The position numbers were made by a program, and so were the translations under genes. From IMG/VR virus record IMGVR_UViG_3300029258_002326, positions 93,266 to 157,265 of that record: DNA of 64,000 nucleotides, one strand, 5' to 3'. Shown here one piece after another: positions 10,376 through 51,932 of the stretch; the stretch's first letter is position 1, and each line of letters begins with the position of its first letter. Below the pieces are notes generated by a model that worked only from the letters and a program-made list of their open reading frames with translations, ran no database searches and was not told the origin of the DNA. Source of the DNA: a virus.

Positions 10376-11479
10376 ATGCCAGGGACGGTTTACAGAAACG
10401 CTGTTGAGGTAACTGAAAACGCTGAAGGCAGAAATCTATCAACTTATAACAGGTTGGCATCGTGTGTTGTTAGCGCGACAACAATCACCGTTCCGCCAAC
10501 GAGCTATAACGCAAACAGTGGAATAGTTTTGGCACAAAACGGAAAATTGTATTGCGTTCAATATTCAGTGTCGACCGACAAAAAACCGTTCGCGGTGACC
10601 ATTACTGATAATGGGCTTGAATATGAACAGCTTTCACTAGACTCAATAGGAGCCCCGTATACATGGCAGGGTGTCTATTGTGCGCTTGCGCCGAATGGTT
10701 TGATTTATTGCGTCCCATTGCAGGACACAAGGGTGATGACAATAAACCCTGACACTCATGAGGTGTTAGCCCCTATTACTGGACTTACATCGGAGCTATA
10801 CAAAGGCGGGGCGTTGCATCCGAATGGCAAGATATATTGTGCGCCATGGGTTCAAACGTCTAGTGGTCACATAGGAGTGATTGATACAAGCAACAACACC
10901 ATTGACACATCTATCACTGGGCCAACTGGTTCTTACATGTATCATGGCGGCGTCTTAGCTCCGAATGGTAAGATATATTGTGCGCCAAGTGGCGCAACTA
11001 ATGTCTTGATAATTGACCCAGAGGCAGGAACAGCAGACTGGACTACAATCACAGGAGTATCTTCAGGGTATGCACCTGGAACGCTTGCGCATAATGGGAA
11101 AATCTATTTCCCACCGACAAGTTCGACGAAAGTCTTGATAGTTGACACCTCTGACGATACAGCCGAGGAAACTTCTATCACTGGGCTGACAGGAACGGAC
11201 AAGTACGGCAATAGTGTTCTGGCCCAAGACGGAAAGATTTATTGTTGCCCAAGTGATGCAACGAATATCTTGATAATTGACCCAGAAACAGACACGGCAG
11301 ATACAACAACAATATCAGGATTGTCATCGACTAGCTTTAAGCATCATTGCATGGTTCTAGCGCCAAACGGGAAAATATATTGCCCTCCAGAGGGGACGTT
11401 TGACAAGTTTACAGTCATCAATCCAGGGATTGCCAAGTACCCAATTGCACCGCTGTTAAGCCCGTACCAAAACAGTTAA
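10376..11479 (+). CDS. Seven-bladed beta-propeller tail protein, paralogue 1
   Basis: 367 residues with seven repeats of about 45-50 residues. Each carries a core such as LAPNGKIYCAP followed by a VLIIDPE...DTTTI segment. The repeat count and the NGKIY turn suggest a seven-bladed beta-propeller of the Kelch/NHL/YVTN kind, a fold commonly used for ligand binding. It lies 8 bp after the second fibre with AGGAGTCGCC before its ATG, and is followed by two paralogues with the same spacing. I infer a receptor-binding or tail-tip role from location. No signal peptide is seen, so it is probably a virion component rather than secreted. Confidence 0.75.
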   Translation: MPGTVYRNAVEVTENAEGRNLSTYNRLASCVVSATTITVPPTSYNANSGIVLAQNGKLYCVQYSVSTDKKPFAVTITDNGLEYEQLSLDSIGAPYTWQGVYCALAPNGLIYCVPLQDTRVMTINPDTHEVLAPITGLTSELYKGGALHPNGKIYCAPWVQTSSGHIGVIDTSNNTIDTSITGPTGSYMYHGGVLAPNGKIYCAPSGATNVLIIDPEAGTADWTTITGVSSGYAPGTLAHNGKIYFPPTSSTKVLIVDTSDDTAEETSITGLTGTDKYGNSVLAQDGKIYCCPSDATNILIIDPETDTADTTTISGLSSTSFKHHCMVLAPNGKIYCPPEGTFDKFTVINPGIAKYPIAPLLSPYQNS

Positions 11480-11488
11480 GGAGTCAGC

Positions 11489-12571
11489 ATGTCTACCAAG
11501 ATTCGAAATGATGCGGCAATCAGGGGGAGTCTGAGCGCTGGTAACATGCCTGGGTATATGCGACAAGCATCGCATGTTATAGGGTCTGAAACGTTCACTA
11601 CGCCATCAGTATACACGAGACAGTCACAGCAGGGCGCATTGGGCCAAAATGGAAAGATTTATTTCATGCCGGTCAGTGCTGCGGATTATAGAATCTTAGA
11701 GTTAACTCCGGGTGTAAATGGTCCAACGATGGTTGAGATTCCTTTTGGCGCTGCGTACGATGGTCAGTCGAGCATTTCAGCGCCGAATGGTTTGATCTAT
11801 TCTTTCCCGTTCAGTTACGAAAACATAACATCTCTAAATCCATATACGCATGAGGTACGGTTAGATGTTGTTACTGGGATAACAGGGTCCCTAAAATATA
11901 CGGCAGCGGTTCTGCACCCGAATGGCAAGATATATTTGATTCCTTACGCAGCAACTCATGTTGGTATTTTCGACCCATCGAATGAGACATTGGACACGAC
12001 ATCGATAACGGCTCCTGCTGGGAGTAAGTTCTCAGGTGCGGCGCTGGCATCTAATGGGAAAATCTATTGCACACCGTACAGCGTTAATTACGTAGGGATC
12101 ATAGATGTTGTGGCTGAGACTATGGACACGACAACGATCAGTGTCAATTCGGGTTCAGCAAAATACTACGGAGGAACACTGGCGCATAATGGGAAGATTT
12201 ACTGTGCCCCAAGGAATGCAACGACGGTGTTGATAATTGACCCTAGTGCGGACACAGCAGAAGAAACCTCTATTACTGGCCTGACAGGTAACGACAAATA
12301 TGGGGACAGTTGCCTAGCACCAGACGGCAAGATCTATTGCAGCTCCCTGTCGACGAACCATGTTGGGATAATTGACCCGGAGAACGACACTATTGACCAA
12401 ACCAGCATTCCTGTTTCTACCTACGATTACAAAAATTACTTTCTGATACTCGGGCCGGACGGGAAGATTTATTGTGCGCCGTTTTATGGGTATTCAGAGG
12501 TCATTGTTATCACCCCTGGGTTTTCAAAATACCCGATTGAGCCAATTTTAACATCGTACGTAAATAGCTGA
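11489..12571 (+). CDS. Seven-bladed beta-propeller tail protein, paralogue 2
   Basis: 360 residues, again seven NGKIY/PDGKIY repeats (for example HPNGKIYLIPYA, SNGKIYCTPYS, APDGKIYCSS). It shares the terminal block ITPGFSKYPIEPILTSYVNS with the end of paralogue 1. The N-terminal 40 residues (MSTKIRNDAAIRGSLSAGN) also match in type, probably the attachment segment. AGGAGTCAGC precedes the ATG 9 bp downstream of paralogue 1. Divergence is spread over the blade faces while repeat cores stay fixed, as expected of duplicated binding proteins. Confidence 0.75.
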   Translation: MSTKIRNDAAIRGSLSAGNMPGYMRQASHVIGSETFTTPSVYTRQSQQGALGQNGKIYFMPVSAADYRILELTPGVNGPTMVEIPFGAAYDGQSSISAPNGLIYSFPFSYENITSLNPYTHEVRLDVVTGITGSLKYTAAVLHPNGKIYLIPYAATHVGIFDPSNETLDTTSITAPAGSKFSGAALASNGKIYCTPYSVNYVGIIDVVAETMDTTTISVNSGSAKYYGGTLAHNGKIYCAPRNATTVLIIDPSADTAEETSITGLTGNDKYGDSCLAPDGKIYCSSLSTNHVGIIDPENDTIDQTSIPVSTYDYKNYFLILGPDGKIYCAPFYGYSEVIVITPGFSKYPIEPILTSYVNS

Positions 12572-12580
12572 GGAGCCAAG

Positions 12581-13684
12581 ATGTCTACAGTGGTAAGAAA
12601 TAAATTTGACGTGCTTGGCAGACTCACGTCTGGTAATGTGTGTGACTTTTTTGATTATGCGTCGCCTGTTGCGGAATATACAAATTCAAGTATATCAGAT
12701 GCTTCTCTTTCGGCAGGTTGTTTAGCACCAAACGGAAAGATTTACTTTATACCTGGAAGTAATTCGGGGAGTACCAAGGTGCTCGTTATTGATCCGATTG
12801 CTGGAACAACGGAGCGTCTCGATTGTGGCTCGTGGTCTGGCTATGGGGCGGTCGCTGCGCATGATGGGTTTATCTATTGTTTTCCTTACGGTTCAGTGTC
12901 AACAATAATGTCTATAAATCCTGAAACGCACGAAGTTAACACGAGTCACAAAACAGGAGTTGGCGGAAGTTCTGATTACCTCGGCGCGACCTTGCATCCA
13001 AATGGAAATATCTATTTGATTCCGTCTGGCGCTCAGAACGTCGGTGTATACACGCCGTCAACTAATACGTTTAGCAGTACGACAACTGGACTCACTGGGC
13101 TACCATCAGGGGCTGCGAAGTGGTACGGCGGCTGCCTTGCGCAAAATGGAAAGATTTATTGTGCTCCGTACAATCACAACAGTGTGTTGATTATCGATGT
13201 GGATACGCCTAGTACTGACATCACAACGATCGCTTCGATGTCTACATATGCTGCGTCTTCGTGGCGACAAGGCTGCCTGGCTCCAAATGGCAAGATTTAC
13301 TTTTCCCCAAGAAATGGAACGTCGGTTTTGATAGTTGACCCGAGTGACGATAGCAAGGATGAATCGACGATCGCTAGCCTTACTGGTAGCAACAAATATT
13401 GCCAAGGAATCCTAGCTCCAAACGGCAAGATTTATTGCCTTCCAATGCTGTTTACGAATGCCCTTGTGATCGACCCTGGCGACGATTCGACTGACACGAC
13501 CACGTACACTGGGTATCAGGCGTCTCAGTACAAGTTTTATGGGCGAGTCCTCGGACCTAACGGTAAAATTTACGCGCCCGCGTTTGACATTACTTATTCG
13601 TTGTTTTTGACAGAGCTAGTGCCAGGCGGGATTGATACGCTGGCACTTGAGGGTTTGCTGTCGCCGTATGTTAATAATTGTTAG
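12581..13684 (+). CDS. Seven-bladed beta-propeller tail protein, paralogue 3
   Basis: 367 residues; seven repeats such as APNGKIYFIPGS, HPNGNIYLIPSG, AQNGKIYCAPYN and GPNGKIYAPAFD. It opens MSTVVRNKFDVLGRLTSGNV, similar to paralogue 2, and starts 9 bp after it behind GAGGAGCCAAG. It is the most divergent of the three and ends the fibre cluster; about 100 bp without a gene follow. Likely a third copy of the same virion adhesin family. Confidence 0.75.
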   Translation: MSTVVRNKFDVLGRLTSGNVCDFFDYASPVAEYTNSSISDASLSAGCLAPNGKIYFIPGSNSGSTKVLVIDPIAGTTERLDCGSWSGYGAVAAHDGFIYCFPYGSVSTIMSINPETHEVNTSHKTGVGGSSDYLGATLHPNGNIYLIPSGAQNVGVYTPSTNTFSSTTTGLTGLPSGAAKWYGGCLAQNGKIYCAPYNHNSVLIIDVDTPSTDITTIASMSTYAASSWRQGCLAPNGKIYFSPRNGTSVLIVDPSDDSKDESTIASLTGSNKYCQGILAPNGKIYCLPMLFTNALVIDPGDDSTDTTTYTGYQASQYKFYGRVLGPNGKIYAPAFDITYSLFLTELVPGGIDTLALEGLLSPYVNNC

Positions 13685-30419: not shown

Positions 30420-31601
30420 TTGAATCGTAGCCATAAAATAGCACTCGATTCGACCCCTCGTCAGGAGAGGTATTTTCGGCGAGCGTGCGGAGTGTCGCGG
30501 TTCACATACAACTGGGCGTTGGCTGAGTGGAAGAGGCAGTATGATCTGGGCGGGGATCCAAGTGGGTTTGCATTGAGGAAGCAGTTTAATGCCATTCGCC
30601 ATGTCGATTTTTCATGGACTGGGGAAGTGTTACGTGATGCGACGGCACGGCCGTTCATGAATGTTGAAAAAGCCTATCAGAGTTTTTTTAAAAAAAGAGG
30701 GAAGTATCCTCGGTTCAAGAAGAAAGGTGTCCGTGATAGCTTCTATGTGTCGAGCGATAGACTTGCAGTAGATGGCCAGAGAATCCGGATTCCGCGTATT
30801 GGGTGGATAAGGATGAGGGAAGAGCTTCGTTTCACGGGAAAGATAACTTCAGCGGTGGTGTCAAGAACAGCTCACAAGTGGTTTGTGTCAATAGCGGTGG
30901 ATATTCCTAAAACTCTGACAACGAGCGAGAACCAAGCCGTGGTTGGGGTGGACCTGGGAATCAAGTCGCTGGCGACATTATCCACTGGGGAGAAGTTCGA
31001 GGCACCGAAGCCGTTAAAGAAGTCATTGGCGAAGTTGCAGAGGTTGAGTCGGCAGTTGTCCCGCAAGCAGAAGGGGTCGAATCGTCGGTGGAAGGCCAAG
31101 CAAAAGTTGGCGCGGTTTCATTATCGAGTGTCGTGTGTCCGCAACGACGCGCTGCACAAGCTGACAACGGGGTTAGTACAGCGATTTGGTACAGTGGTCA
31201 TTGAAGACCTGAACTTGAAGGGCATGGTCCGCAACCGGTATCTGTCGCGGGCTATTTCCGACGTGGGGTTTGGGGAGTTTCGACGGCAGATTGAGTACAA
31301 GGTTGCGGATCACGGTGGTCGTTTAGTAGTGGCTGATCGCTGGTATCCGTCGTCGAAGACGTGTTCGGATTGTGGGTTCAAACTGGATATTTTGTCATTA
31401 GGCACCCGAAAATGGGATTGTCCGGAGTGCGGATCTTCACACGACCGAGACATCAATGCCGCTGTAAATTTGAAAAAACTAGGGCAGGCTTTGCCCGAAG
31501 TGACGCCCGTGGAGAAGAAGGCCCTGGCGAGCAGTGATCTGTTCGTGAAACCAGCTTCGGTGAATCGGGAACTAAGCTGTGTCAGGCGCGAAAGTGTTTG
31601 A
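30420..31601 (+). CDS. tnpB: TnpB RNA-guided nuclease, orphan transposon gene
   Basis: 393 residues, TTG start. Full RuvC-like catalytic set: D in VGVDLGIKSLA (~178), E in VIEDLNLKGM (~261) and D in SHDRDINAAVNL (~341), with a zinc ribbon CSDCG...CPECG between the last two. N-terminal HTH_OrfB-type domain with RFTYNWALAEWK. TnpB uses an omega RNA from the element's right end to cut DNA and is the ancestor of Cas12. No tnpA or serine recombinase lies beside it, so the copy is either a non-autonomous element or a retained nuclease. The stop falls in the loop of a 3' hairpin. Confidence 0.9.
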   Translation: MNRSHKIALDSTPRQERYFRRACGVSRFTYNWALAEWKRQYDLGGDPSGFALRKQFNAIRHVDFSWTGEVLRDATARPFMNVEKAYQSFFKKRGKYPRFKKKGVRDSFYVSSDRLAVDGQRIRIPRIGWIRMREELRFTGKITSAVVSRTAHKWFVSIAVDIPKTLTTSENQAVVGVDLGIKSLATLSTGEKFEAPKPLKKSLAKLQRLSRQLSRKQKGSNRRWKAKQKLARFHYRVSCVRNDALHKLTTGLVQRFGTVVIEDLNLKGMVRNRYLSRAISDVGFGEFRRQIEYKVADHGGRLVVADRWYPSSKTCSDCGFKLDILSLGTRKWDCPECGSSHDRDINAAVNLKKLGQALPEVTPVEKKALASSDLFVKPASVNRELSCVRRESV

Positions 31602-33369: not shown

Positions 33370-33780
33370 TTAGCCGCCATTTTGATTTTGGATATATCGT
33401 TTTATTACTTCAAGAGGGGCTCCGCCAGCCGAGAGCACGCAGTATGCCCGATTCCACAGTACGGGTTTCCAGTAGTATTTTTTGAGTTCACCTTCGAACT
33501 CACGTCGGATTTCGCGAGAGCTAATTGTTTTGAGTGTGTTTACGAGTTTGCTCGGCTGGATGTTTGGATGAGCATCAATGAGCAAGTGTACATGGTCACG
33601 TTCGCCATTGTATTCGGTGAGTTTGCAGCCTGCATTTTCGCAAACTCTTCGAAAGTGGTCGCCCAGACGTTCCAGGATTGGATCAGAAAGAGCTTTGTGT
33701 CGGTACTTAGTGACAAAGACTATGTGGTAGAATATGCGAAATACGCAGTGTGCATGGCATCTTAGGTCTTGTTGCAGCAT
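33370..33780 (-). CDS. tnpA: IS200/IS605 TnpA Y1 transposase
   Basis: 136 residues from the ATG at 33780; an upstream ATG (33816) would add 12 residues but would overlap tnpB. The HUH motif is DHVHLLID and the catalytic tyrosine is in EVIKRYIQNQ; FYHIVFVTKYRHKAL is the standard N-terminal strand. The enzyme excises and inserts single-stranded DNA through a 5'-phosphotyrosine, recognising the end hairpins. Length fits the family (130-150). The ILERLGDHFRRVCENAGCKL helix and KPVLWNRAYCVLSAGGAP region are intact. Confidence 0.92.
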   Translation of the reverse strand: MLQQDLRCHAHCVFRIFYHIVFVTKYRHKALSDPILERLGDHFRRVCENAGCKLTEYNGERDHVHLLIDAHPNIQPSKLVNTLKTISSREIRREFEGELKKYYWKPVLWNRAYCVLSAGGAPLEVIKRYIQNQNGG

Positions 33781-33803
33781 TGAAACTATGATAGGGAAGC
33801 AAA

Positions 33804-35057
33804 GTGGAAACCACAACTAGAAATTACGAATTTCGACTTTATCCAACCAGTAAACAGGAATCAGTTTTAATTGGTTGGCTCGGTCTTCACTGTGAGATGT
33901 ACAACGCTGCGCTTCAAGAGCGACGTGATGCGTGGCGAAAGAATGGTATTCGCGTCACGTACAACGATCAGCAGAATCAGCTTCCCGCCATCAAGCTCGA
34001 CAGGCCAGAGTTTAATCCGCTTGGGAGTCATGCTCTCCAAGAGACTGTTCGGCGGGTTGACCGAGCATTTTCTGCTTTCTTCCGTCGAGTCAAAATGAAA
34101 GCTGGGAAGGCTGGTTTCCCGCGTTTCAGGAACCGCAAGCGCTATGATTCGTTTTGCTATCCTGATCCAGCAGGGTGGAATGTCGAGAAGTGGACGGAGA
34201 AAGGTGGCAAACTTCGGATTTCTAATCTCGGTTTTTTCTCGATGCGAGGAAGGGCTCGTGTGCCTCTTGAGGACGGAGAGCGTAGAACGCTCACTGTACA
34301 AAGGCGACAAGGTAGATGGTTTGCGACGTTTGGTTATCGACACGCGATTACCACAGTATTTCGCCCTGAGATAAATCCACGCACTTCAGTAGGTATTGAT
34401 GGCGGAGTTAAAGTTCTTGCGTATTTGTCTAACGGGATAGAGATAAAGAATCCGAAGTATCTTGCCCAATCCTCGAAGCTAATCAAGTCGGCTCAGCGAG
34501 ATTCGTCTCGTAAAAAGCGCGGTTCGAAGAATAAGAGCAAGGCTCAGGATAGGGTTTCTCGTCTTCATAGGCGAGTCGCCAATCAACGGAAGAATTTTCT
34601 TCATCAGATTTCTGCGATGCTAGTCGGAGCATATTGCTTTATAGCTGTGGAGGATCTCAAGATCAAAAACATGATCCGGTCGGCGAAGGGGACGCTAGAG
34701 AAACCGGGTCGTAAAATCAGACAGAAATCCGGCCTCAATCGGTCGATGTTGGATGCAAGCCTGGGAATGTTCTATCAAAAGCTTGAGTACAAAGCGGTGG
34801 AAGCTGGCACTCAGTTTGAGCGAGTAGACCCGAGTGGAACGACGCAGCAATGCGCCCGTTGTGGGGAGCATGTCGAGAAGTCGCTGGGGGACAGGTGGCA
34901 TTCTTGTCCTGTTTGTGGTTTCGAGGCTAATCGCGATCACAATGCCGCAATCAATATTCTATCGAGAGGTTTCAAGCAATCCGGGCGGGAACCGTCCGAA
35001 GTGTGGAGGTGCCAGATTACTGGTCCGTTGAGGCACGGAACCACCTCCATGCGTTAG
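33804..35057 (+). CDS. tnpB: TnpB RNA-guided nuclease of the IS605-type element
   Basis: 417 residues, GTG start, divergent from tnpA. RuvC residues: D in VGIDGGVKVLA (~199), E in AVEDLKIKNM (~282) and D in NRDHNAAINIL (~377); zinc ribbon CARCG...CPVCG. It differs widely from the orphan tnpB at 30420, so the two came separately. The stop codon lies in the right-end hairpin, as expected where the omega RNA overlaps the 3' end of the gene. Expected role: guide-directed cutting of the empty donor site, helping the element persist. Confidence 0.92.
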   Translation: METTTRNYEFRLYPTSKQESVLIGWLGLHCEMYNAALQERRDAWRKNGIRVTYNDQQNQLPAIKLDRPEFNPLGSHALQETVRRVDRAFSAFFRRVKMKAGKAGFPRFRNRKRYDSFCYPDPAGWNVEKWTEKGGKLRISNLGFFSMRGRARVPLEDGERRTLTVQRRQGRWFATFGYRHAITTVFRPEINPRTSVGIDGGVKVLAYLSNGIEIKNPKYLAQSSKLIKSAQRDSSRKKRGSKNKSKAQDRVSRLHRRVANQRKNFLHQISAMLVGAYCFIAVEDLKIKNMIRSAKGTLEKPGRKIRQKSGLNRSMLDASLGMFYQKLEYKAVEAGTQFERVDPSGTTQQCARCGEHVEKSLGDRWHSCPVCGFEANRDHNAAINILSRGFKQSGREPSEVWRCQITGPLRHGTTSMR

Positions 35058-43249: not shown

Positions 43250-45859
43250 ATGATGAATGCTGCCGATGTCGGCAACGGAAGGGTTCCGCCTTCTAACCGA
43301 GAAGCTGAACGCAAAATCCTGGGTAGCGTACTGTTGGATAATTCGGTTTTGGAAACCGTGGCAACGATAATCGAGCCGTCCGACTTTTTCTTCGAAACCC
43401 ATAAGATTATATACAAGGCAATGGAGCGTGTATCCAAGGGCGGCATGCCAGTGGATCACGTTACCCTTGGCCACGAGATGATGAAGACCGGAGAGCTTTC
43501 CAAGGCGGGGGGTGCTGTCGAGCTGATGGATCTGGCCGATAATATTTCGGCGGCGGCGAATGCAGAGCATTACTCCAAGATTGTGAGAGAGCTGTCAGGG
43601 GTCAGGAACGTCATCCATGCTGCTCGCATTGTCGTAGAGGCAGGGTTCTCAAGCGGAGACGCCCTGCATGTGACAGAGGCGTTAGAGGGCCTAGCGCTGG
43701 CTACCAGGGATCTTGAGAAATCTAACATGCCGATGAGTCTGTTGGGCATGGGTGATCAGGTTCTTGAGTCGTACGGCAAGGTGGCAAGTGGGTTCAGGGG
43801 GATCCCTCTGCCTTGGAAATCGCTGGATGATATGACAGCGGGGTTGTGGCCTAAAACATTGACGATGTTCGTGGCCCGCCCCGGCACAGGGAAATGCCTA
43901 CATGCCCGCACATTAACCTACATCAAGAAGACTGGACAATACAAGACCATAGAGCAGGTTGTCAAGGATAGAGACGACGTTCTCACCCGAAAGTCTAATG
44001 GTTCTATTGTGGGTGTTACTCCTGATGCTTGGCTGGATATGGGGACAAAGGAGTGTATGAAGGTCCGCTTTTATAGCGGGCGGGAGATGTCTCAGACCCC
44101 AGAGCATCCAGTGATGACGGTAGACGGGTGGAAGCGGACGGACGAACTTAAGATCGGCGATTACGCTGAGGCGGTGGGTATTGTTCCTGAGCCTGAGATG
44201 GCGTTTAAGGTAGGTGACAATGAGTCGATGCTCATTGCTGCAATGTTGGCTGATGGAGGTGTGACCCAGGATGTACCTACGTTTACAAAAAGAGATCAGG
44301 CGATTGTGAGTTTTGTGCGTGAGGCAGTGTCATATCATGGTTGTGAGCTTGTTCCGATGATAAAGGGCAAAGACGACGGTCGTTACAGGGTGAAAGGTGG
44401 TCGTAATTTTTGGAAGAAATGGGACGAGTGGGGATGCTGTAGATCGCTATCAAAGAACAAGGTGATTCCTGATAGAGTGTTCCAGTATGACAACGAATCC
44501 TTGGCCAAGTTCCTTGGTATGCTCTGGAGCTGCGATGGTTCGTTTCCTGTTGGTAAAAATGGCTATTGCACTATCGAGATAGGTCTTGCCTCCAAGGAGA
44601 TGGTTGAGCAGATACAGAGGTTGTTTTTAAGGTTCGGAATACACGGCGGAATCAGGTACAAGAGATCGAAGTGTCAGACGGGCGTATTCGATAGTTGGAT
44701 ATACAAGGTCTATGCGACTTCGTATGAGCGTTTCAAGGAGCAGATACCGATAGTTGGCGAGAAGGCGGAGAAGGCTCGTTTGCTGAAAAATGCTAAGAAT
44801 CCGAACGTTGATAACATTCCGATTACTCCGAAGTTGAAAGCGGAGATACTTCACATTGTTGAAGGGTTTCATGAGAGCGGGCGAGTACGTCGCTATGAGC
44901 AGATGTCGCGTGAGCTTGGGATGACGGTGCGGATCAGCGCGAACAAGCTCTACAGGAGGAACACAGTAAGCAGGCGCATATTCCGTGCGTTTGTCGATGC
45001 TTTTGACGCCAAGCATCTTGAGCATCTGCTGGTTAATCACTGGGATCGCATTGAATCCATAGAGGACGACGGCGTTCACAGGGTGTTCGATTTAACAGTA
45101 ATGGACGGGCATGCCTATGTTGCAAACGACATGGTTGTTCACAACACGTTTGTGGCTATCATTGCTGCTCGCCATGCTTGGTTATGTGGCAAGCGGGTTC
45201 TTCTTGTCTCTCCTGAGATGTCCAAGGAGGAGATTGCAGAGCGGTTTTTTGTCATCCATTCCTGTGTTTCGTACAAACGTTTAATCTCTGGCGAATTGTC
45301 TGATTTCGAGCTACCCCAACTGGAGAGGACGGTAGAGAGTCTTAGTGCTGTTGCGTCCCATCCATCGGAGAATCTCTGGATAATGGACGAAGAGGATGAC
45401 ATATCCCCGGCTGGGATAGACTCTGCGATCAGGGCCACGGACGCGGAGTGCGTAGTCGTGGATTCAGTCTACGATTTGCATATTAAGGGCGACAGGCGAG
45501 AGAGGACGATAGCGGGCGTAGAGTGGCTCAAGAGGTCATGTAAGAGGGGCAACTATGCAGCGGTTGGTTATTCACAACAAAACAGGTCGGCGGAACTTTC
45601 GGAGAAAAAGGGCGGCGGGGCCAGGCTTGGAACGATAGCGAATGCGGATGAAGTTGGCCAGGATGCCCATACAGTGATTGCCCTTGAGCAGACCAAGGAT
45701 GACAAGGACGACGGCATTCTCAAAATGAAGCCGATAAAGATCCGGCGTGGTCAGTTTAAGAGGGATTCGATTTCCATCCGGTGGGATTTTGACAAGATGG
45801 TGTACGACGAGATGCCAGAAGAAGAGGATGACTACAAGGACGAGGCTACGTCGTTTTAG
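43250..45859 (+). CDS. dnaB: Replicative DNA helicase DnaB with intein
   Basis: 869 residues; after removing a 417-residue intein the protein is 452 residues, normal for DnaB. N-terminal domain: PPSNREAERKILGSVLLDNSVLE. The P-loop ARPGTGK (209-215) is split from its Thr (633) by the intein. Downstream: VLLVSPEMSKEEIAERFF, Walker B VVVDSVYDL (~737-745), GYSQQNRSAE and the arginine-rich VIALEQTKDD...KPIKIRRGQF end. It unwinds DNA at the phage fork as a hexamer, loaded by the upstream AAA+ protein. Without splicing, ATP binding would be abolished. Confidence 0.93.
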   Translation: MMNAADVGNGRVPPSNREAERKILGSVLLDNSVLETVATIIEPSDFFFETHKIIYKAMERVSKGGMPVDHVTLGHEMMKTGELSKAGGAVELMDLADNISAAANAEHYSKIVRELSGVRNVIHAARIVVEAGFSSGDALHVTEALEGLALATRDLEKSNMPMSLLGMGDQVLESYGKVASGFRGIPLPWKSLDDMTAGLWPKTLTMFVARPGTGKCLHARTLTYIKKTGQYKTIEQVVKDRDDVLTRKSNGSIVGVTPDAWLDMGTKECMKVRFYSGREMSQTPEHPVMTVDGWKRTDELKIGDYAEAVGIVPEPEMAFKVGDNESMLIAAMLADGGVTQDVPTFTKRDQAIVSFVREAVSYHGCELVPMIKGKDDGRYRVKGGRNFWKKWDEWGCCRSLSKNKVIPDRVFQYDNESLAKFLGMLWSCDGSFPVGKNGYCTIEIGLASKEMVEQIQRLFLRFGIHGGIRYKRSKCQTGVFDSWIYKVYATSYERFKEQIPIVGEKAEKARLLKNAKNPNVDNIPITPKLKAEILHIVEGFHESGRVRRYEQMSRELGMTVRISANKLYRRNTVSRRIFRAFVDAFDAKHLEHLLVNHWDRIESIEDDGVHRVFDLTVMDGHAYVANDMVVHNTFVAIIAARHAWLCGKRVLLVSPEMSKEEIAERFFVIHSCVSYKRLISGELSDFELPQLERTVESLSAVASHPSENLWIMDEEDDISPAGIDSAIRATDAECVVVDSVYDLHIKGDRRERTIAGVEWLKRSCKRGNYAAVGYSQQNRSAELSEKKGGGARLGTIANADEVGQDAHTVIALEQTKDDKDDGILKMKPIKIRRGQFKRDSISIRWDFDKMVYDEMPEEEDDYKDEATSF
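43895..45145 (+). other. Intein in DnaB P-loop with LAGLIDADG homing endonuclease
   Basis: 417 codons. First residue Cys (CLHARTLTYIKK), block B TPEHPVMTVDGWKRTDELKIGDY with the conserved His, and C-terminal block VHRVFDLTVMDGHAYVANDMVVHN ending in His-Asn, followed by extein Thr. Two LAGLIDADG-type helices are seen: LIAAMLADGG (~residue 330 of the precursor) and FLGMLWSCDGS (~421), so it is a full-size, potentially mobile intein. Both splice-junction residues are present, so splicing should work. Confidence 0.92.
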
Positions 45860-50037: not shown

Positions 50038-50042
50038 GTTCG
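50029..50042. promoter_or_regulatory. Dispersed operator palindrome (site 8)
   Basis: CGAACTTAAGTTCG, symmetric TTAA centre that contains the stop codon of the preceding gene. It begins the 235-bp gap before the Hsp20-like gene. Confidence 0.75.
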
Positions 50043-50150
50043 CGTCGAATCCTGTTAATCGACGTGAATCATGTGGGAGGTTACCCTAGAACCTCTCTAC
50101 CGGCGCTTGTGGCTGCGTCGGATCTGGCGAGGAGGCACCGGGCCTGCCAG
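50043..50150 (+). ncRNA. Possible structured leader or small RNA
   Basis: Three successive hairpins: CGTCGA/TCGACG (50043-50064), GAGGTT/AACCTC (50077-50095), and CTGGC/GCCAG enclosing AGGC/GCCT (50124-50150, 4-base bulge). No gene or tRNA fits here. It sits upstream of a separate promoter, so it belongs either to the 3' end of the preceding transcript or to an independent RNA. Confidence 0.35.
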
Positions 50151-50188
50151 GCATGAAAGTGGGACGGTGTTTTTCTAGTTATTTCCAG

Positions 50189-50217
50189 TTGACAAAATCC
50201 AAGGCAATCAGTAACAG
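50189..50217 (+). promoter_or_regulatory. Sigma70-type promoter
   Basis: GTTGACAAAA with TTGACA at 50189, 17-bp spacer, TAACAG at 50212; reads into the Hsp20-like and GHKL genes. Confidence 0.6.
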
Positions 50218-50272
50218 ATAGTGCGTATTTGCGGCGAGGTGTCGCAGTCGTCTATTCAAAAGGAACAATCTA

Positions 50273-50587
50273 ATGGGAAACATCATCAAAAAAGAGTCCG
50301 TGGGATCCGTCGAAATGCTTATTCTTGCTCCCGGCGTTCATGAGAAAATATTGAAAGTCAGCGCGGACAAAGAGTCTTCCAATCTGTACGTGGACGCGAA
50401 GCCCGAGCTGGTGGGAACGGCATGTGCTGATGAGGTTGAACTAGGCATTAGTCATGCGATTGAAGTCGATGCCAAGTACGACGTCTCGACGGCCAAGGTT
50501 TCGGTGTCTGATGGGATCATCAGGATCGTTGTATCGGCCAACTCAGAGAGAATCATTGATATTCACCCTTCTCCAGCCAGTAAGTAG
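50273..50587 (+). CDS. Hsp20 / alpha-crystallin-like small protein
   Basis: 104 residues; ATG after AAAAGGAACAATCTA. The strand order resembles an alpha-crystallin domain: MLILAPGVHEKILKVSADKESSNLYVDAKPEL (the usual DLPGv.k.dikV...nnxLxV), then HAIEVDAKYDVSTAKVSVSDGIIRIVVSAN in place of F.LP..vd.dki.A...nGvLtI.v. Small heat-shock proteins occur in several myoviruses and hold unfolding proteins. The match is from pattern only. It is followed 10 bp later by a GHKL ATPase gene, so a joint chaperone function is possible. Confidence 0.55.
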   Translation: MGNIIKKESVGSVEMLILAPGVHEKILKVSADKESSNLYVDAKPELVGTACADEVELGISHAIEVDAKYDVSTAKVSVSDGIIRIVVSANSERIIDIHPSPASK

Positions 50588-50596
50588 GAGGGGAGA

Positions 50597-51646
50597 ATGA
50601 GCGGCAATCTAGGGATGATCAAGTATGGGATAGGCAGGGCATATCTTCCAGACTGGGGCGCCAAGGAGGCGCTCCGGGAGATCTATCAGAACTTCGTCGA
50701 CTACGGGGAACACAGTGAAGATGTCAGTCACACGCTGACTGATCCCTCAGCGGTGGACTTTGTCACGGTTACTCTGAGTAACGATTACGTGCCTGAATCT
50801 GAGGGGGACTTTCTCAAGATCGGGACGTCAGGGAAGCGGGGCGATGACAGCACTATTGGATCCCATGGAGAGGGCCTGAAGATGGCTGCCATGGTTCTCG
50901 GCAGAGAGGGCCATGATTTCAAAGTCAGGAGCGGCGATCGAGAGTATACCGCAACCACGTACCAGGATGATTTCCTTGGAGAGTGCTTTGGTCTTGCTGT
51001 CAACAGTTGCCCTAGTCTAACTACTCCTTTTCAGGTTAAGTTTTCAGTGGACAAGGTCGATTACGACATGTGGAAGGGATCAGTCATCAAGGATGAGGAC
51101 GTTGTGTTTTCCAATTATAACGGGAGCATCATCAAGGGGAAGCCTGGCGATGTCTTTGTTGGAGGATTCTACGTCGCGAACATTAGCGGGTTAACCAGAG
51201 CATATAATTTCCCGCCTAGTCAGATCCCTCTTGATAGGGACAGGAGGGTCCCTGCTGAGTTTGATGTCGTCTGGGCTGCGGGCAGGATTCTAAGTGCCTG
51301 GGAGGGCACGTCCACGGAGGATCTGAATACAAAGGATGCTCGCTATATCGACAGGGTCAGCGATAAGGTTGCACGTAAGTACGAGCCTTCTATGGACTCA
51401 AAGGGTCGCGTTGACTTCAAGCTCAAGGACGGCACGCGGGCGCCTAGTCACGTTGGTGACATTCTCATGAGGAAGCCGTTCGTTCAGAAGAAGCTATCGA
51501 AGATGCGTTACGAGATGAGTCGCAAGCGTAAGCCTGAGTCCATTCTAAAGGAATTCAGGGATAGGCATTTGATGAAGTATGACATGGGTGCTGCTAGGTA
51601 TGATTTTGACCAAATTGTGTCCAAGTCGAAAGGGTGGAAGTTCTAA
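50597..51646 (+). CDS. GHKL-fold (Hsp90/histidine-kinase-like) ATPase
   Basis: 349 residues; strong GGAGGGGAGA site. The N-box reads EALREIYQNFVDYG, giving E28-x3-N32-x2-D35, exactly the GHKL spacing, and the G-box reads GTSGKRGDDSTIGSHGEGLKMA (G88-S-H-G91-E-G93). These bind Mg-ATP in Hsp90, MutL, gyrase B and histidine kinases. No kinase dimerisation domain or membrane segment is present; the C-terminal ~150 residues are charged and unrecognised. It could act as a chaperone, a MORC-like DNA factor, or a defence or counter-defence ATPase. Confidence 0.7.
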   Translation: MSGNLGMIKYGIGRAYLPDWGAKEALREIYQNFVDYGEHSEDVSHTLTDPSAVDFVTVTLSNDYVPESEGDFLKIGTSGKRGDDSTIGSHGEGLKMAAMVLGREGHDFKVRSGDREYTATTYQDDFLGECFGLAVNSCPSLTTPFQVKFSVDKVDYDMWKGSVIKDEDVVFSNYNGSIIKGKPGDVFVGGFYVANISGLTRAYNFPPSQIPLDRDRRVPAEFDVVWAAGRILSAWEGTSTEDLNTKDARYIDRVSDKVARKYEPSMDSKGRVDFKLKDGTRAPSHVGDILMRKPFVQKKLSKMRYEMSRKRKPESILKEFRDRHLMKYDMGAARYDFDQIVSKSKGWKF

Positions 51647-51647
51647 G

Positions 51648-51932
51648 ATGAGAAATCGAGTGCATCGTGAATATGAGCCAGGGTTGGAACTTCCAAGTCG
51701 ATTACCGGGGCGTGACTATGTCCAGCGGTGCAACAATGGTTGTGGCTGTGGATACGGTTGGGGTGAATGCAACGGGTTTGGGTCTGGCAGGGGCTACCAG
51801 ATGCGAAACGGGTACGGATCGATAAGTGGGCACGGCTACGGGAGTGGGGTTTTCTGTGGGGGTGGAGCCCCTGATGGTCATGGGAGCGGAGAGGCCATTA
51901 CGGGTCGTCGCTGGACTGAATTATTGTATTAG
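51648..51932 (+). CDS. Gly/Tyr/Cys-rich small protein
   Basis: 94 residues from the ATG at 51648, one base after the GHKL stop; a longer frame from 51579 would overlap that gene. The centre is very glycine rich (CGCGYGWGECNGFGSGRGYQ, GYGSISGHGYGSGVFCGGG). Such composition suggests a flexible or phase-separating protein; no family recognised. The ribosome-binding site is poor, so translation may depend on coupling. Confidence 0.45.
   Translation: MRNRVHREYEPGLELPSRLPGRDYVQRCNNGCGCGYGWGECNGFGSGRGYQMRNGYGSISGHGYGSGVFCGGGAPDGHGSGEAITGRRWTELLY

Follow-up and report, generated by a model that had tools for sequence, protein, structure and literature searches.

An Hsp20-domain protein gene paired with a GHKL-fold ATPase gene in one lineage of a widespread phage ATPase family

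Two neighbouring genes in a viral genome, one for a small protein resembling Hsp20 and one for a GHKL ATPase, raise the question of what such a pair does and whether its products work together. The genes lie in a stretch of 64,000 nucleotides, hereafter the window, which corresponds to positions 93266-157265 of a 157,265-bp virus record (IMG/VR IMGVR_UViG_3300029258_002326). Both open reading frames are found on the + strand where the initial annotation had placed them (Table 1). That annotation also described the genes as 10 bp apart under one promoter. The close spacing stands, the intergenic spacer being 9 nt (50588-50596), but the single promoter is not supported by a consensus scan of the + strand around the pair, which returned neither a sigma-70-like promoter nor a terminator, phage-type promoters being possible. 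A non-coding gap of 235 bp (50038-50272) precedes the pair. A glycine-rich, low-complexity open reading frame that is putatively coding (51579-51932) overlaps the end of the ATPase gene.

Table 1. Window positions of the paired genes, their ribosome-binding sites and the ATPase motifs discussed in the text.
Feature	Position	Strand	Basis or description
Ribosome-binding site AAGGA of the Hsp20 gene	50260..50264	+	sequence
Hsp20/alpha-crystallin-domain protein gene	50273..50587	+	104 aa; family-profile, Pfam and independent-profile matches
Ribosome-binding site AGGAGG of the ATPase gene	50586..50591	+	sequence; overlaps the Hsp20 stop codon
GHKL-fold ATPase gene	50597..51646	+	349 aa; PHROG 6077 family; AlphaFold2 and Foldseek
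N-box E28-I-Y-Q-N32-F-V-D35	50678..50701	+	E, N and D invariant in 50/50 rows
G1-box position, S61-N-D-Y-V-P66 instead of the canonical DxGxG	50777..50794	+	conserved Asp absent
ATP lid / G2 motif G88-S-H-G-E-G93	50858..50875	+	G88, G91, E92, G93 and K95 invariant in 50/50 rows
R214-D215-R216, second ATPase domain	51236..51244	+	R214 in 49/50 rows; D215 and R216 in 50/50 rows

As a single sequence, the product of the first gene has no match in Pfam, in PHROG, among named phages or in scans for close relatives. Small open reading frames located directly upstream of relatives of the ATPase align with it at 20-33% identity, and a nine-row profile of this family, searched against the PDB, recovered S. 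pombe Hsp16 (E 6.3e-7) and four further small heat-shock protein chains below 1e-3. One family member (locus L024) scores 22.5 bits against Pfam HSP20 (PF00011), for which the cut-off is 20.8, and the Pfam model matched by the family is HSP20 and not CS. When the window protein is left out of the profile, a single one of the 590 open reading frames of the window is still matched, that of the first gene (E 5e-22; next E 3.2). Because this leave-out profile picks only the open reading frame in question, the match is not due to chance; a profile drawn from four unrelated phages alone still finds it (E 7.5e-10). The protein comprises a very short N-arm, an alpha-crystallin domain and a C-terminus, RIIDIHP, that is I-x-I-like. 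Its single-sequence AlphaFold2 model is mostly beta and, with a pLDDT of 47, too poor for use. Judged by its family-level profile, the product of the first gene is an alpha-crystallin/Hsp20-domain protein. The initial description of it as Hsp20-like is thus borne out at the level of the family and not by the single sequence.

The second gene product likewise required profiles, a close-relative scan with its single sequence having given no match. It is a member of PHROG 6077 (E 2.5e-38 over residues 7-257), which together with 8203 accounts for all of its PHROG matches. PHROG 6077 is a widespread phage family without an assigned role: the ATPase family is present in 107 named phage records, those listed being ~23-32% identical, and a profile search with the family reached 231 IMG/VR loci. 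Some relatives match Pfam HATPase_c and HATPase_c_3 (best E 6e-4 and 8e-4, respectively), and Pfam detects no kinase, MutL or gyrase partner domain in the ATPase, in agreement with the initial annotation. An AlphaFold2 model built from a 50-row alignment reached a pLDDT of 92.2 and a pTM of 0.84. When the model was compared with the PDB by Foldseek, the B subunit of topoisomerase VI led the matches (E 3.4e-5, probability 1.00), followed by ParE and MORC3. On this model the ATPase has, with high confidence, a Bergerat (GHKL) fold, which agrees with its first assignment. The matches to ParE and MORC3 span more than 300 columns and hint at a transducer-like second domain, a tentative assignment given the high rmsd in that domain (5.8-20 A), within which R214-D215-R216 would supply the candidate catalytic basic residue. 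Topoisomerase VI-B and the MORC ATPases are the closest solved structures by fold and also give weak profile matches, but the likeness is largely confined to the ATPase domain, with identities of 7-18%, and the canonical DxGxG motif of these proteins is lacking in the window ATPase.

This last difference touches the nucleotide site itself. The exact N-box (E-x3-N-x2-D) and the GSHGEG lid that had been pointed out before are both present, and their key residues are invariant across 50 diverse relatives. What had been overlooked is that the Asp of the G1 box is missing. It is replaced in all 50 rows of the alignment, with N, S, T or K at position 62 and mostly S or T at position 61, and an Asp at position 63 is found in only 9 of the 50. 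Where MORC2 has DDGAG and topoisomerase VI-B has DNGIG, profile alignments place other residues in the ATPase. In GHKL ATPases the G1-box Asp contacts adenine. Since this adenine-contacting residue is missing, the nucleotide choice of the protein may be altered; as far as the motif tells, the change could mean a non-ATP ligand or a dead ATPase site. The protein combines a GHKL fold with an atypical site, its nucleotide use may be unusual, and hydrolysis is not to be assumed.

Conservation of the arrangement bears directly on whether the two products belong together. Whether the genes are neighbours in other genomes had been asked at the outset, and they are: in nine genomes, namely the window and loci L015, L016, L018, L020, L023, L024, L106 and L107, the ATPase gene is directly preceded by an Hsp20 gene. 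At L016 the Hsp20 domain forms the C-terminal part of a 362-aa protein. Spacings across the nine pairs are -1 (four cases), 2, 4, 4, 9 and 118 nt. The Hsp20 profile, run against all open reading frames of 129 loci, found no match elsewhere than directly upstream of the ATPase. When 22 whole records were searched, exactly one family copy was present in each of the 8 paired records and none in any of the 14 related unpaired ones; the window's own record has one copy. A smaller Hsp20 profile, searched against 2.9 million viral contigs, returned five loci, all on contigs with a known pair. In a 50-row maximum-likelihood tree the nine paired ATPases group as a single clade (support 92/65), and none of 500 label shuffles was as clustered. 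The clade adjoins an unpaired group including two loci from Sphingobacteriaceae genomes. The other paired ATPases are only 30-52% identical to that of the window. Of the 8 paired records, just 2, those of the L106 and L107 phages, contain a match to the window UvsX (~50% identity). The pair is thus shared by phages without a close relationship, with the reservation that several paired records, including some of those lacking a UvsX match, are fragments.

These data weigh on an alternative in which the two are independent early genes, one for a holdase of the small heat-shock type and one for an ATPase unrelated to it, that share one message by chance. Stand-alone small heat-shock proteins do exist in cyanophages (PMC3827213), and the ATPase is found alone in many phages. 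On the other hand, the searches found the Hsp20 family only beside the ATPase, the two genes have stayed adjacent despite deep divergence and in phages of no close relationship, and the reading frames often touch or overlap; we regard a chance association as very improbable. Most of the ATPase relatives examined lack the Hsp20 gene, which is absent from the named phages examined. As the ATPase occurs far more widely than the pair, it probably does the core job, with the Hsp20 protein as the dedicated accessory of one lineage. Phage-encoded alpha-crystallin domains are otherwise represented by the Hsp20 proteins of cyanophages and jumbo phages (PHROG 432; PMC3827213, PMC5028025, PMC7824862). 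In comparison, the window family is shorter, has hardly any N-arm and is tied to a GHKL gene, and only one of its members matches PHROG 432, weakly (E 0.043). A search of the open-access literature found no paper on the pairing. Phage Hsp20 genes have already been described, as have phage GHKL genes of the RIIA type; the new part is apparently the conserved pairing, which would make the two genes a conserved and apparently undescribed two-gene module.

The surrounding genes give an indication of the setting in which this module may act. Upstream of the pair, the window encodes a DnaB-type helicase, an SF2 helicase and small genes; downstream are a UvsX-like recombinase, a Holliday-junction resolvase, a Cas4-type exonuclease and a ParB/methyltransferase protein. 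At 35 unpaired ATPase loci, the 121 neighbouring genes include those for Dda helicase (4), ligase (3), endonuclease V (3) and endonuclease VII (3), and SSB and thymidylate synthase are also among them. The nameable neighbours of the ATPase family are often DNA-metabolism genes, which fits an early role in DNA transactions, replication or host take-over, and fold and gene context together lean toward DNA metabolism or host take-over. On the reading we favour, the two genes constitute one unit, in which a GHKL ATPase of the early DNA-metabolism or host take-over programme is served by a dedicated Hsp20 partner. The folds, the tight gene coupling, the inheritance within a single clade and the replication-gene context are all shown and speak for such a unit; against it stand the many ATPase relatives without an Hsp20 gene and the fact that neighbours in a phage operon can be functionally unrelated. 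We give the one-unit reading an even chance of being correct. If it is, the nucleotide-gated ATPase would open and close as a dimer, presumably in a cycle coupled to hydrolysis, and would work within the early DNA-metabolism or host take-over programme of the phage. The Hsp20 protein would bind physically to the ATPase, or to a putative client of it, and might stabilise the ATPase or tune its cycle much as p23 does on Hsp90.

The analogy is instructive in that p23-Hsp90 is a precedent for control of a GHKL cycle by an alpha-crystallin fold: p23 stabilises Hsp90 in the closed form and inhibits its ATPase, and the Hsp90 N-domain and p23/CS act together (PMC7864943). The initial annotation had gone further and proposed a phage chaperone pair made of a holdase and an Hsp90-fold ATPase. 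Of this proposal the two folds hold, but the chaperone reading is not supported as stated, because no Hsp90 is found among the best 50 PDB fold matches, the ATPase is mostly unpaired and it is surrounded by genes of DNA replication and repair. Identity of the ATPase with Hsp90 can be rejected: besides the missing fold match, its 349 aa are too few to accommodate the Hsp90 middle and C-terminal dimerisation domains, for which Pfam gives no match. A less literal version would be a minimal Hsp90/p23-like machine of the phage, in which the ATPase would remodel client proteins, be they replication or virion proteins of the phage or defence proteins of the host, with the alpha-crystallin protein as holdase or co-chaperone. 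It has in its favour the conserved gene coupling and a combination of folds, a GHKL ATPase with an alpha-crystallin-fold partner, that recalls Hsp90 and its CS-domain co-chaperones p23 and Sgt1. The rarity of the partner among ATPase relatives, the absent Hsp90 domains and fold matches, and a partner that matches HSP20 and not CS all count against it. We consider such a machine unlikely, even if an Hsp90-like chaperone role is possible by analogy.

A different comparison arises from viral structures. Outside its own family, the nearest viral fold neighbours of the ATPase are RIIA proteins, which dominate the matches in the BFVD fold search once that family is passed (E 1e-7 to 1e-5). RIIA, itself a GHKL protein whose tail varies, is considered a counter-defence protein (PMC7824862), and RIIA/RIIB counter RexAB (PMC11879866). 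By the same token, the ATPase might block host abortive infection, with the Hsp20 partner stabilising it or its target complex. The resemblance to the RIIA/RIIB system of T4 and its relatives is, however, that of one phage GHKL protein to another. The window ATPase has 349 aa against ~620-1050 aa for the RIIA fold matches, it lacks the G1 Asp that T4 rIIA keeps (DFGPG), and its similarity to T4 rIIA is at the GHKL level only. No RIIA PHROG matches it, whereas T4 rIIA itself matches 612, 2979 and other RIIA families. Separate rIIA and rIIB genes, forming a true rIIA-rIIB locus, accompany the ATPase family gene in three phages (Cronobacter phage GAP31, Vibrio phage PWH3a-P1 and Shewanella phage 1/40). 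With no RIIA PHROG match and with three phages carrying both genes, the ATPase is rejected as RIIA. The partner is likewise rejected as RIIB at the sequence level: comparison of the Hsp20 profile with T4 rIIB gave no match, and RIIB PHROGs (609, 3803) are found neither in the window's record nor in the six paired records searched. Taking both sides together, we find an RIIA-like counter-defence role doubtful.

Among more elaborate possibilities, the pair could be a stand-alone machine of two proteins, found to date in viruses alone. Its GHKL switch, with a nucleotide pocket that is altered and might take a base other than adenine, would be under the control of an alpha-crystallin co-chaperone; the machine would have evolved in phages in parallel to Hsp90-p23 and would act on replication or host defence proteins. 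We attach a low probability to this scheme. With an Hsp20-ATPase complex, the Hsp90-p23 principle would have its counterpart in viruses. More generally, the ATPase family often sits among early DNA-metabolism genes and is without a known role, and the lineage locked to an Hsp20 partner offers a small, testable complex and a route to understanding the family as a whole. The family-wide loss of the G1 Asp also raises the question of which nucleotide the ATPase uses.

Several additional features were recorded in the window and at the related loci. The DnaB-type helicase of the window (43250-45859) is 869 aa long and is matched in separate N- and C-terminal stretches, which suggests an intein or other insert. 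Similarly, in the phage of L107 (G008 C1, 88319-90487) UvsX matches fall into three pieces of a 741-aa frame, which looks like the result of inserted inteins. Two TnpB-like open reading frames and one IS200-type transposase, recognised from their translations only, lie at 33370-35057 and 30420-31601, and IS200/IS605-like elements appear to be present in this phage genome. Three tandem open reading frames of ~360 aa (10376-13684), situated beside long tail-region open reading frames, are paralogue-like. Among the paired loci, a CxxC...CEGxxC motif is fused N-terminal to the Hsp20 domain in L016 (3797-4885) and L023 (4525-5001), and in L024 (5993-6205) it is found immediately after the ATPase gene; going by the motif, the cysteine-motif protein is possibly a third, metal-binding component. 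In L106 (6242-8916) and L107 (6364-8945) the pair is followed by a protein of 505/534 aa, the L106 one having no Pfam or PHROG match, and then by an ARPP-1 protein (PF20208). Finally, Streptococcus phage vB_SagM-GXN1 carries an unannotated member of the ATPase family (L006 4019-5254, in PQ819873.1).
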